Assembly: GCA_945907245.1 (NCBI GenBank)
Contig: CAMDTB010000018.1
Location: 1-50,542 of the forward strand
Reading direction: 5' to 3'
DNA: 50,542 nt
From: Rhizobium sp. Q54
GTDB lineage: Bacteria > Pseudomonadota > Alphaproteobacteria > SMXS01
Part shown: one piece after another, positions 22,595 to 35,843 of the stretch
Layout: every line of letters begins with the position of its first letter
How positions within the stretch are numbered: position 1 is the first letter of the stretch
The notes under the pieces: model-generated
What the model was told of the DNA's origin: nothing
Seen by the model: the letters and a program-made list of their open reading frames with translations, nothing else
Database searches by the model: none
Translations under genes and position numbers: made by a program

Positions 22595-23218
22595 TCAGTC
22601 GAACGTGATATCGGGCTGGGGCATCTTGCCCAGGTCGATGTAGGGCTGCTCGCCCATATCGGCGGGGGCGTCGGTCTGGGGCGGCCGCAGCTTCTCCATC
22701 CGCGCGGTGGCGATGCGGAGCGCGTCGTCCAGTTCCACCTGGCTGCACAGGCCCAGGGTCACCGGGTCGGTGGGCTTCAGGTTGGTCATGTTCCAGTGGC
22801 TGCGGTTTCGGATCGAGGCGATCGTCGGCTTGGTGGTGCCGATCAGCTTGCCGACCTGCGCGTCGGTCAGTTCCGGATGATAGCGCACCAGCCAGGCGAT
22901 GGCGTCGGGCCGATCCTGCCGCTTCGACACGGGCGTGTAGCGCGGACCCTTGCGCTTCTTGGCTTCCGGAATCACCGGCTGGTTCAGCTTCAGGCGTTCG
23001 GCCGGATCGCCCTCGCAGCGGAGGATCTCCTCGCGGGTCAGCTGGCTGTTGCTGACGGGATCGAGGCCGACGATGTTCTGCGCCACCTCGCCATCGGCGA
23101 TCCCCTGCACTTCCAGTTCATGCAGACCGCAGAAATCGCCGATCTGACGGAAGGTCAGCTTGGTGTTGTCGACGAGCCAGACAGCGGTTGCCTTGGGCAT
23201 CAACGGTAGGTTCATCAA
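22595..23218 (-). CDS. trcR: TrcR (DUF1013) cell-cycle transcriptional regulator
   Basis: A 207-residue DUF1013 protein. The beginning MPKATAVWLVDNTKLTFRQI and the segment FCGLHELEVQGIADGEVAQ are typical, followed by GLDPVSNSQLTREEI and a helix-turn-helix-like region (ELTDAQVGKLIGTTKPTIAS). The family is annotated as TrcR, a DNA-associated regulator restricted to alphaproteobacteria and linked to the cell-cycle circuit. It is nearly universal in the class and single-copy. Its promoter region on the minus strand contains TATATAG (near 23276-23282). A CtrA-box promoter is found 1.5 kb away at 24.7 kb. Confidence 0.9.
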   Translation of the reverse strand: MMNLPLMPKATAVWLVDNTKLTFRQIGDFCGLHELEVQGIADGEVAQNIVGLDPVSNSQLTREEILRCEGDPAERLKLNQPVIPEAKKRKGPRYTPVSKRQDRPDAIAWLVRYHPELTDAQVGKLIGTTKPTIASIRNRSHWNMTNLKPTDPVTLGLCSQVELDDALRIATARMEKLRPPQTDAPADMGEQPYIDLGKMPQPDITFD

Positions 23219-24473: not shown

Positions 24474-24665
24474 GTGGATTTGGATGACCTGCCCCGCCCG
24501 CGGCCGGCCGGCGCCGCCGATCTCGCCCGGGAAGTGCTCGACAATCTGTCGCTTTATGAACTGAAGGAGCGCGTCGCGCTGCTGGAGGCCGAGATCGTGC
24601 GCACCAGAAAACTGATGGATTCCAAGGAATCCAGCCAGTCCGCGGCGGCCAAGCTGTTCAAGTAG
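24474..24665 (+). CDS. DUF1192 family small protein
   Basis: A 63-residue protein beginning (M)DLDDLPRPRP, with the central helix LYELKERVALLEAEIVRTRK that defines DUF1192, and a Ser/Ala-rich tail ending in KLFK. The start is GTG 24474, with AGGAGG 5 bases before it. The family is confined to alphaproteobacteria and often lies beside quinone oxidoreductase genes, as here. Function unknown; the helix is likely a short coiled coil. Confidence 0.88.
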   Translation: MDLDDLPRPRPAGAADLAREVLDNLSLYELKERVALLEAEIVRTRKLMDSKESSQSAAAKLFK

Positions 24666-24686: not shown

Positions 24687-24719
24687 TTAATCCGAGGTTA
24701 AGATTCCCTGCGGTATAGT
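24687..24719 (+). promoter_or_regulatory. CtrA box and -10 element of a small-RNA promoter
   Basis: A perfect TTAA-N7-TTAA (24687-24701) matches the binding consensus of the cell-cycle regulator CtrA. TATAGT (24714-24719) follows 12 bases later, so the CtrA box occupies the -35 region, the layout of CtrA-activated promoters. No good sigma-70 -35 element replaces it. Transcription would begin near 24726. This is the only perfect site I found in the window. Confidence 0.65.
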
Positions 24720-24725
24720 CCGCAT

Positions 24726-24811
24726 TGTCAGACTGGCATTATCCCTCCCTTGGCCGGTCTGATGACTCCCCCAGACTTGGCCGCTCAGGCATTGCTGAGC
24801 GGCTTTTTTTT
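24726..24811 (+). ncRNA. Candidate small RNA with C-rich anti-Shine-Dalgarno loop
   Basis: An 86-nt non-coding transcript is inferred between the CtrA-type promoter and an intrinsic terminator. Hairpin 1: TCAGACTGGC (24728-24737) pairs with GCCGGTCTGA (24753-24762), one G-U wobble, exposing the 15-base loop ATTATCCCTCCCTTG. A single-stranded stretch with ACTCCCCCA follows. The terminator is GCCGCTCAG (24780-24788), a 6-base loop, CTGAGCGGC (24795-24803) and eight Ts. GTCTG (24757-24761) can instead pair with CAGAC (24772-24776), presenting the second C-rich segment. No open frame with a ribosome-binding site fits. C-rich loops of this sort are known from alphaproteobacterial trans-acting sRNAs that block ribosome-binding sites. 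A related loop occurs in the candidate at 35.7 kb. Confidence 0.68.
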
Positions 24812-24829
24812 AGAACGTCGTCCCGTGCT

Positions 24830-25042
24830 TCAGTCCGATCTCTGCACGGGCATGTCCAGCTTCACGGCATGGGTCTTGATCGGCACGCACAACAGACCCG
24901 CGAGACAGAGGGCGCCGAACGCCACCATAAAATAGCTCCGCCTGCGCCAGTCCCGGATGATCTGCCAGACGATGTAGATCGGCAGAGCCGCAAAGACGAT
25001 CGCCCAAGACAAAGCGATCACAATATCCCTCAACGCATTCAT
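24830..25042 (-). CDS. Small two-helix membrane protein
   Basis: A 70-residue hypothetical protein with two hydrophobic helices, about residues 8-28 (IALSWAIVFAALPIYIVWQI) and 38-57 (MVAFGALCLAGLLCVPI), separated by the basic loop RDWRRRSY. No known family. It lies between the sRNA terminator and the UbiH-type hydroxylase, 30 bases before the end of the latter, with convergent transcription relative to the sRNA. The hydrophobic pattern makes it more than a random frame, but expression is unsupported otherwise. Confidence 0.55.
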   Translation of the reverse strand: MNALRDIVIALSWAIVFAALPIYIVWQIIRDWRRRSYFMVAFGALCLAGLLCVPIKTHAVKLDMPVQRSD

Positions 25043-25072
25043 TCGCTTGCCACCCCCCGGTAGCGTCCCGGC

Positions 25073-26311
25073 CTAAAGTGCCTCGCCCTTCAGCAGGCGC
25101 GGCAGGGTGCCGACGGTACCTCGGGCGTGCTGCATGAAGAAGCGCTTCAGCGGATCGATCCGGTTGACCACGGCCAGGCCCGCGTCGCGGAGCAGCCGCA
25201 CCGGCGCGACATCGTTGGTAAACAACGTGTTGAGGCTATCGGTTGCGGCGGTCAGCGTCAGGGTGTCGATGCGGCGCCAGCGATCATAGCGCTCCAGCAC
25301 CAGCGGCGAGCCCATGTCGAGGCCCAGTCGCGCGGTGTCCACCAGCAGCTCTGCCAGCGCCGCCACGTCGCGCCAGCCAAGATTGAGGCCCTGGCCCGCG
25401 ATGGGATGCATGCCATGGGCCGCGTCGCCCACCAGCGCCAGCCGGTCGGCGCTGAATCGCTGGGCCACATGCACCGCATAGGGATAGGAGAAGCGCGGGC
25501 CGACGGCGCGCACCGTGCCCAGGAAACCCTCGATGCGCTTCGATATCTCCGCGTTGAACGAGTCGTCGTCGAGCGCCAGCATGGCCCTGGCCACGTGGTG
25601 CTTCTCGCTCCAGACCAGCGACGAGCGCTTGCCGGTGATCGGCAGCACGGCGAAGGGACCGGCGGGCAGGAAGCGCTCATGGGCGATGCCCTGATGATCC
25701 TTCTCATGCTCGATGGTGGTGACGATGCCGGTTTCCGGATAGCCGTGCCCCAAGACCCGGATGCCCGCCGCGTCGCGTAGCGGCGATTTGCGGCCGTCGG
25801 CCGCCACCACCAGCGATCCGCGCAACGCGCCGTGACCGCCGACCCGGGCGGTGACGCCGCCGGGGTGCGCCTCCATGCCATCGACCGTCGCCGGATATTG
25901 CAGACGTACGCTGCCCAGGTCCTGTATTGACCGCAGGAGCCCGAGCCTGATGTGCCGGTTCTCCACCATGTAGCCGAACGGCTCGTTGCCGAGCGCCCGA
26001 TGGTCGAAGTTGAGGAACACCGGCGCTGCCCCGTCGGTCACCCTGATGTCGAGGATTGGCTGCGCATGAGCCTCCATGTGCCGCCAGGCGCCGATCGCCT
26101 CGAGCAGGCGCCACGACGCGTAGGCGATGGCGGTCACCCGGCCGTCGAAGCCCGGATCGACCGTGCTGTCCATGCTGGCGCGCTCGGCCACGGTGACGTC
26201 GATGCCGGCGCGGCCGAGCGCGACGGCGAGGCTGAGGCCCGCGAGGCCGCCGCCGACGATCAGCACGTCGGTGCGCGGACATGTGGGCATGGACGCGGGG
26301 TTCGAGGTCAT
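25073..26311 (-). CDS. UbiH/UbiF/COQ6-type FAD-dependent aromatic hydroxylase
   Basis: A 412-residue flavoprotein monooxygenase of the ubiquinone-biosynthesis hydroxylase family. The FAD dinucleotide motif is DVLIVGGGLAGLSLAVALGR at the N-terminus. The second nucleotide motif is VVAADGRKSPLRDAAGI, and the GD motif region is LVGDAAHGMHPIAGQGLNLG, all standard for the family. It introduces a ring hydroxyl of ubiquinone with O2 and NAD(P)H. Which ring position (C5, C6 or C1, as for UbiI, UbiF, UbiH or UbiL) cannot be told by eye. The start at 26311 is preferred, with other Met codons at 26323 and 26290; the frame is open to 26404. Confidence 0.9.
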   Translation of the reverse strand: MTSNPASMPTCPRTDVLIVGGGLAGLSLAVALGRAGIDVTVAERASMDSTVDPGFDGRVTAIAYASWRLLEAIGAWRHMEAHAQPILDIRVTDGAAPVFLNFDHRALGNEPFGYMVENRHIRLGLLRSIQDLGSVRLQYPATVDGMEAHPGGVTARVGGHGALRGSLVVAADGRKSPLRDAAGIRVLGHGYPETGIVTTIEHEKDHQGIAHERFLPAGPFAVLPITGKRSSLVWSEKHHVARAMLALDDDSFNAEISKRIEGFLGTVRAVGPRFSYPYAVHVAQRFSADRLALVGDAAHGMHPIAGQGLNLGWRDVAALAELLVDTARLGLDMGSPLVLERYDRWRRIDTLTLTAATDSLNTLFTNDVAPVRLLRDAGLAVVNRIDPLKRFFMQHARGTVGTLPRLLKGEAL

Positions 26312-26505
26312 GGGGCAAACCATGGACGGCGAGGCAATACGTTGTCCACCCCATATGACCGGAGCGATTTTGATCAAATTATAGCCATACTGTCTCAATT
26401 GCACATTTAATGTTCATTGCAAATGTTCTGCATGCTGCACCGCGTTATCCGCTCGTTGGCGGCAAATGCATGAAAGGTCAATGGCTTACCGATAAATTTC
26501 AAGTT

Positions 26506-35628: not shown

Positions 35629-35775
35629 CAGCGACGTCCTTTGCGGTGCAGTATCACATCCCCTCCCTTGGTGTTCTGCATCTGACGTTGCCGGTACCGG
35701 ACCCCCCTCCTGGTACCATGCGTAACAGCGCAGAGCCCGGTCAGGAATTTTATCTTGGCCGGGCTTACGCTTTTT
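35629..35775 (+). ncRNA. Candidate small RNA with two C-rich hairpin loops
   Basis: A 147-nt non-coding transcript is inferred. The outer stem is GCGACGTC (35631-35638) with GACGTTGC (35684-35691). Inside it GCAG and CAC (35648-35657) pair with GTG and CTGC (35671-35679), exposing loop ATCCCCTCCCTTG. Hairpin 2 is GGTACC (35693-35698) with GGTACC (35712-35717), exposing GGACCCCCCTCCT. The terminator is AGCCCGG (35734-35740) with CCGGGCT (35759-35765), then TACGC and five Ts. A possible promoter is TTGAAA (35594-35599) with an A/T-rich -10 near 35618. Both loops could pair with purine-rich Shine-Dalgarno sequences. The first loop shares CCCTCCCTTGG with the candidate at 24.7 kb. Confidence 0.65.
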
Positions 35776-35843
35776 CGGGGCATCAGCATCCGGGCTCGAC
35801 CTGATCGTCCCGGCCCCCTAAAACAGGGCGCGGAGGAACTCCC

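Follow-up and report, generated by a model that had tools for sequence, protein, structure and literature searches.

A putative divergent alphaR8-type small RNA with an exposed anti-Shine-Dalgarno loop in an alphaproteobacterial genus

The window, that is, the whole stretch of 50,542 nucleotides analysed here, carries a small-RNA-like locus in which an anti-Shine-Dalgarno sequence is exposed in the loop of a 5′ hairpin, and its conservation, together with covariation, is supported by related copies. On its sequence relationships, the RNA is a divergent offshoot of the alphaR8/MmgR/suhB sRNAs and not a new family. It is probably a clade-specific, trans-encoded sRNA of the MmgR/suhB type, which would most likely block translation by pairing through its loop.

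Layout, fold and conservation of the locus

The features of the locus in the source genome (G000, 3.34 Mb) are listed in Table 1. Much of the layout in the original prediction agrees with what is found: the TTAA-N7-TTAA sequence is exact at 24687-24701, the TATAGT element is in its place, the transcript unit of about 86 nt ends in a terminator with T8 (by sequence and fold, with the start deduced from the −10 element), and the TrcR ORF lies about 1.5 kb away. No sigma-70 −35 hexamer was seen by eye 16–18 bp from TATAGT. The transcript had also been described as free of any ORF: a TTG-start frame at 24725-25063 (+), the sole plus-strand ORF of at least 80 aa starting in and crossing the predicted RNA, does overlap it, and it matched no Pfam family. 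A coding reading of this frame, which crosses the terminator, was rejected. No Rfam family was matched at its own cut-off in the whole window, and the plasmid collection gave no match.

Table 1. Coordinates of the predicted RNA, its elements and its neighbours in the window
Feature	Position	Strand	Basis or remark
Direct-repeat promoter element CGTTAA-N6-GTTAA	24685..24701	+	Contains the so-called CtrA box TTAA-N7-TTAA; centre about −32 from the inferred start
−10 element TATAGT	24714..24719	+	Similarly spaced TATA-like sequence in aligned related copies
Predicted sRNA, about 86 nt	24726..24811	+	Start from −10 element, end from terminator (both inferred)
5′ hairpin, 11 bp, compensatory changes	24727..24763	+	Fold and covariation
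Invariant loop motif CCCTCCCTT, anti-Shine-Dalgarno-like	24743..24751	+	Copy alignment
Putative drifted alphaR8 core CTCCCCCAGACTT	24766..24778	+	Family core is UUUCCUCCCU then A[A/G]ACUU
Rho-independent terminator with T8	24779..24811	+	Sequence and fold
DUF1192 ORF, upstream neighbour	24474..24665	+	Pfam match; synteny conserved
UbiH-like FAD-binding ORF, downstream neighbour	25073..26404	−	PF01494; synteny conserved in genus and G007
TrcR ORF, syntenic neighbour	22595..23218	−	PF06242

A 146-base stretch was matched in 7 of 60 genomes (its own and relatives), all of one genus, and an intact orthologue (hereafter C, n = 6) exists in six of these seven. In G004 (78% complete) there is only a 3′ fragment (G004:C119), near a contig end and with an unrelated 5′ part, which was excluded from the orthologue counts; the other match in that genome is a paralogue, B, found in four genomes (G000, G001, G003 and G004). 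All six orthologues sit between the DUF1192 gene and the UbiH-like gene, the PF01494 ORF that we take to be UbiH, and past DUF1192 there follow an alcohol-dehydrogenase-like (ADH) ORF and then TrcR where seen. The same order, TrcR-ADH-DUF1192-RNA-UbiH, is found in G007 of a sister genus; in G008 and G009, TrcR-ADH-DUF1192-RNA is kept, and no UbiH match is present in the downstream sequence covered, 1,500 bases in G008 and about 830 in G009. Under strict filters, a model built from these copies (R1) scored above 50 bits in five of 385 genomes of the class, all from the same family; the window RNA reaches 83.1 bits against this model, in which its own sequence is included. As for paralogue B in the source genome, it is located at L008 1501-1580 (G000:C3:19111-19190) between BMFP and LGT ORFs, with GTTAA-N6-GTTCA as its upstream promoter repeat; in G000, G001 and G003 a match resembling peptidyl-tRNA hydrolase is located about 4.6 kb away from it.

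The 86-nt RNA has a minimum free energy of −37.7 kcal/mol, the mean of dinucleotide shuffles being −23.4 (z −4.73), and none of 200 shuffles matched its fold energy. The 5′ hairpin alone contributes −16.8 kcal/mol and has ATTATCCCTCCCTTG as its loop. When the ten copies (six C and four B) were folded with RNAalifold, the terminator and a 5′ helix of 12 pairs were obtained; the paired cells of this helix (helix 1) amount to 99.2%, and both sides have changed in 4 of the 12 pairs, so that the hairpin, originally proposed from one sequence, is kept by compensatory changes. After the three sister-genus copies were added (13 copies), 94.3% of cells are paired and both sides have changed in 5 of 11 pairs. 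When the structure is taken as a whole, none of 500 shuffles reached the observed covariation score, the share of paired cells or the number of doubly changed cells, to be read with the reservation that kinship alone may lift related sequences above shuffles without structure; slid controls fall to 16–48% paired. The number of doubly changed pairs was matched by 29 of the 500 shuffles and that of further pair types by 409.

The loop itself is conserved in the close relatives: CCCTCCCTT is unchanged in all ten copies of C and B, and CCCTCCC is present in all 13 copies when those of the sister genus are included. In every one of the 13 the probability that the loop is unpaired is 0.90–1.00, which bears out the exposed anti-Shine-Dalgarno loop of the original prediction; the C-rich core on the 3′ side is less dependably open (0.43–0.96). 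A further proposal, that the RNA switches between two C-rich loops, has not stood up. The segment GTCTG at 24757-24761 can indeed pair with CAGAC on either side in the window sequence, but the pairing is not conserved. Among the nine of 13 copies folded for this purpose (the six orthologues, two of four B and one of three sister copies), the downstream GTCTG/CAGAC register is formed in three of six orthologues (G000, G005 and G001, identical there), G006 pairs in a different register, and the pairing is not formed in G003 and G002 (best folds of this stretch −0.7 and −2.7 kcal/mol). Forcing the 5′ arm to stay unpaired carries a penalty of 10.6 kcal/mol. The two-state switch was rejected on this penalty, on the alternative pairing being confined to half of the orthologues, and on the compensatory changes that maintain helix 1.

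Relationship to the alphaR8 sRNAs

The alphaR8 RNAs include MmgR of Sinorhizobium meliloti and SisA-D of Caulobacter crescentus (RF00519). They have been reported in nearly all alphaproteobacterial orders, with roles in carbon storage and starvation (excerpts of PMC12559287 and PMC12542648). In the same excerpts, the 10-mer UUUCCUCCCU of the family is single-stranded and located upstream of the terminator, and one copy stands beside the N-formylglutamate amidohydrolase (FGase) gene in most species with a single copy (PMC12559287).

At a relaxed threshold, the best Rfam match of the window RNA was suhB (MmgR, alphaR8; RF00519), with 23 bits and E 0.0095 on a 301-base stretch, which falls below the gathering cut-off of 41 bits; weak suhB scores also arise by chance, as 12 of 14 control genomes match at E up to 1, one of them above the cut-off. 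The suhB matches listed include four of the remaining five genus orthologues, with 23.7–31.6 bits; the syntenic copy in G009 has 26.5 bits, and that in G007 (G007:C13:5657-5741) has 42.8 bits, above the RF00519 cut-off. A canonical alphaR8 copy is present in 7 of 7 genus genomes (61–65 bits). In the source genome it adjoins an FGase ORF (PF05013), whereas the window RNA is found instead at DUF1192/UbiH and lacks this linkage.

Direct comparison gives different results for the two paralogous groups. B and the canonical alphaR8 of the same genome have 20–21 nt (CTCCCTAAACTTGGGCCACT) in common in 4 of 4 cases, the maximum in 500 shuffles each being 12, and the window RNA resembles B with a BLAST E of 2.8e-6 and the same architecture. 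The longest match between C and B is 10–12 nt (shuffle maxima 10–13), and that between the window RNA and the canonical copy is 7–8 nt, the chance level of shuffles. The syntenic copies of G007, G008 and G009 keep CTCCC[T/C]A[A/G]ACTTGGGCC as in the canonical copy. That is to say, descent from alphaR8 is argued indirectly, through the relatives: the similarity and architecture of B, the core-keeping sister copies, and the G007 copy above the cut-off. The original prediction missed this descent.

Length, terminator, a C-rich anti-Shine-Dalgarno stretch and the A[A/G]ACUU segment ahead of the terminator are common to alphaR8 and the window RNA, the connection being made through the sister copies and B, and the Rho-independent terminator follows the core as in the family. 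The differences lie in the 5′ part and in the core. The 5′ hairpin of alphaR8 is weak, whereas that of the window RNA is a strong one of 11 bp with CCCUCCCUU in its loop; the 10-mer UUUCCUCCCU is not intact before the terminator, where UGACUCCCCC stands instead, and the heptamer CCUCCCU is located in the loop of the 5′ hairpin and not at the core. The ordinary core GCGTTTCCTCCC is found in 14 of 24 other loci of the class that were examined. In addition, the mmgR promoter is described as bound by PhaR (excerpts of PMC12542648), unlike the GTTAA repeat at the promoter of the window RNA.

The other way to account for the likeness is convergence, the window RNA being an anti-Shine-Dalgarno sRNA of separate origin and of the cuckoo/CcsR kind, a label that we take to cover RNAs of the SmelA075/SmelA099 type. 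The weak suhB score and a direct match to the canonical copy no better than chance would fit this explanation, and so would the two C-rich elements and the combination of a conserved loop with variable stems, which is also described for SmelA075/SmelA099 and other RNAs with CCUCCUCCC loops (excerpts of PMC3927594). The SmelA075/SmelA099-type RNAs, however, have three or four hairpins with CCUCCUCCC (PMC3927594), whereas the window RNA does not have several hairpins with CCUCCUCCC in each loop; it has a single C-rich loop with CCCUCCCUU, a mostly unpaired core and a probable alphaR8 descent. Against convergence also stand the canonical-like sequence kept by the three syntenic copies of the sister genus, the G007 score and the nucleotides common to B and the canonical copy, so that convergence is disfavoured on sequence grounds and appears very unlikely.

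With descent from alphaR8 as the preferred reading, the copies could be placed in an ordered series, from the canonical copy through B and the sister-genus copies, with two C-rich elements, to the window copy, in which the seed would lie mainly in the new hairpin loop. The divergence of alphaR8 copies is little known, and the locus offers such a series for the study of promoter replacement and seed relocation. The open-access literature, which covers few subscription papers, yielded no account of an alphaR8 RNA whose 5′ hairpin is C-rich.

Several other loci show partly similar features. In G005, L162 and L083 are RNA-like, with C-rich 5′ segments and a degraded alphaR8 core, and L162 has the same promoter repeat. 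In the same family, L108, L125, L130 and L131 contain a recurring CCCTCCCA...CTCCCCAAACTTGG after a AAGCAAGG...CCTTGC hairpin and are possibly a further relative. Elsewhere in the class, L064 (G373) and L060 (G168) are alphaR8-like; their 5′ part is C-rich and resembles a hairpin, and a GTTAAC element lies upstream. The variant may extend beyond the family of G000-G009.

The promoter repeat and the question of CtrA

GTTAA-N6-GTT[A/C]A is located at a near-constant distance from a TATA-like −10 element in all 13 copies (six C, three sister-genus and four B). The full TTAA-N7-TTAA is found in 6 of 6 genus orthologues, and the second half is TTCA (TTAA-N7-TTCA) in the 3 of 3 sister-genus and 4 of 4 B copies. 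The exact TTAA-N7-TTAA occurs at three sites in the source genome, the reversed control pattern at 11. CGTTAA-N6-GTTMA gave 22 sites in six of the seven genomes searched, compared with 4 for the reversed control. Six of these sites precede C, three precede B, and one precedes the C-rich RNA-like stretch L162; five more precede ORFs with like beginnings, of which the one in G000 matches Sel1. The remaining seven are a mixed set, some of them lying ahead of SH3-like ORFs (the one tested scored below the cut-off), and for at least two no clear reading was reached.

Within 160 bases upstream of the canonical alphaR8 core, the exact GTTAA-N6-GTT[A/C]A is absent in 7 of 7 copies. Five of the seven (L021 etc.) have a GTAACNCATTGTTCA stretch 114 bases before the core, one base off the B/C repeat. 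This look-alike (GTAACCCATTGTTCA or similar) sits farther upstream than the B/C repeat does, and TTGATT followed by an AT-rich hexamer at the same loci could, by eye, be an ordinary −35/−10 pair.

The repeat had originally been read as a CtrA box, by which CtrA would make the RNA a cell-cycle-timed regulator like CcnA of Caulobacter. This reading can draw on an exact box at about −32 that is kept in full throughout the genus orthologues, on the nearby TrcR, on a ctrA-like gene on contig C41 of G001, and on CcnA, a small ncRNA preceded by a CtrA-box-like element, which is a precedent for CtrA dependence (excerpts of PMC8959179). CcnA is nevertheless set apart by its description, being 182 nt long, located at the replication origin and found in a CtrA-bearing host (PMC8959179). 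The scarcity of exact boxes in the genome (three only) and the TTCA second half of the sister-genus and B copies argue against CtrA, and 9 of 10 genomes of the family (78–100% complete) yielded nothing at the level of CtrA or ChpT. Control by CtrA, and with it the proposed cell-cycle timing, is rejected because the family showed no such match outside one suspect contig, and we regard it as very unlikely. As a point of reference, 101 promoter regions with a CtrA site were reported in Dinoroseobacter shibae (excerpts of PMC4046655).

The CtrA profile gave 397–424 bits in G010-G013, compared with 184–190 bits for the best full-length match in each genus genome. With a CtrA protein as query, the best family matches outside C41 have 40–41% identity and 141.8–147.2 bits in 9 of 10 genomes, with no match at E 1e-40 in G007; identity is 81–100% in 3 of 3 other alphaproteobacteria, one of which supplied the query. 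The ChpT family PF10090 was likewise found at full strength in these three outside genomes and in the Caulobacter control. Within the family it was found on G001:C41 (127.5 bits), and elsewhere only as short matches of at most 23.5 bits, including one in G005 just above the 22.9 cut-off, which covers 44 of 123 positions in a 730-aa frame.

Contig C41 is 9.6 kb long and contains an incomplete ctrA (10 Ns inside) and chpT. Its tetranucleotide use is atypical: the correlation with 10 pieces taken from five further contigs of G001 is 0.54–0.68, and that among those pieces is 0.63–0.85, ranges that touch. The contamination listed for G001 is 3%. C41 is probably contamination, although this is not proven. 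The simplest reading is that the family of G000-G009 appears to have no CtrA-ChpT branch, bearing in mind that completeness is only 78% and 84% for two of the ten genomes and that masked or unassembled stretches are invisible to the search. TrcR is present in the family all the same. An apparent loss of CtrA and ChpT across a whole alphaproteobacterial family would by itself be of note, and no description of a CtrA-less family of this kind was found in the open-access literature (few subscription papers covered).

From the 11-bp spacing of the repeat and its overlap with the −35 region, a non-CtrA activator of the OmpR/PhoB type is suggested. It is tentatively proposed, as a possibility to which we would give somewhat less than even weight, that in this family without CtrA and ChpT another OmpR-family regulator reads the CtrA-like repeat over several alphaR8-derived sRNAs and a few protein genes (Sel1-repeat and SH3-like ORFs), the seed having moved from the core into the new 5′ hairpin loop. 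If true, this would be a case of seed relocation within a conserved sRNA family.

Possible mode of action and targets

The mechanism could proceed as follows. The GTTAA-N6-GTT[A/C]A direct repeat would replace the −35 hexamer and drive the 86-nt transcript, with the non-CtrA OmpR-family regulator as the putative activator. In the transcript, the strong 5′ hairpin would expose CCCUCCCUU in its loop, and a second, drifted C-rich stretch, the presumed old alphaR8 core, would be mostly unpaired ahead of the Rho-independent terminator. The loop would then pair, in the manner of SisA in Caulobacter, with the purine-rich Shine-Dalgarno regions of a number of mRNAs, and this pairing may block translation with the assistance of Hfq. 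By analogy, the window RNA should bind Shine-Dalgarno sequences by the loop that holds the heptamer CCUCCCU; the predicted loop duplex is energetically favourable, with −16.9 kcal/mol with AAGGGAGGG and −9.0 with AAGGAGGU.

Anti-Shine-Dalgarno seeds usually act on mRNAs, and this is counted against another view, in which the RNA would be a sponge or decoy that titrates G-rich RNA or competes with its alphaR8 siblings. Siblings with C-rich stretches do exist in the same genome, and CrfA, which sponges SisA-D, is a precedent of which this would be the converse (excerpts of PMC12559287). That no conserved mRNA target surfaced is also in its favour: AAGGGAGGG-N{1,10}-ATG gave none in six genomes, a strict pattern by which weaker targets are missed. 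The sponge or decoy is on the whole regarded as unlikely. For the preferred reading, in which the loop pairs with mRNAs, the comparable cases are SisA, which represses many mRNAs, likely through the anti-Shine-Dalgarno 10-mer and with Hfq, and the S. meliloti MmgR variant without the 10-mer, in which PHB over-accumulates (excerpts of PMC12559287).

Among the matches listed for the six genomes, AAGGGAGGG-N{1,10}-ATG was found at 27 places, two of which are antisense copies of the window RNA itself. The only site present in 6 of 6 genomes, at 35657-35669 (−) of the window, was rejected as a target: a stop codon comes right after the ATG, and the site is the antisense of a conserved C-rich element. 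In the source genome, a lipoprotein-like ORF without Pfam family (L044 1525-2529, G000:C10) has a ribosome-binding site, CCAAGGGAGGGACG, complementary to the loop; a matching site of this type was not shown in the other five genomes. The C-rich element on the opposite strand, at 35645-35785 (+) of the window, is a second conserved non-coding element and matches no Rfam family at cut-off. It contains the C-rich CCCCTCCCTTGG and GGACCCCCCTCCT (GGTACC hairpin) and a terminator-like hairpin, with a mean column identity of 95% over six genus genomes and a fold z of −3.88.
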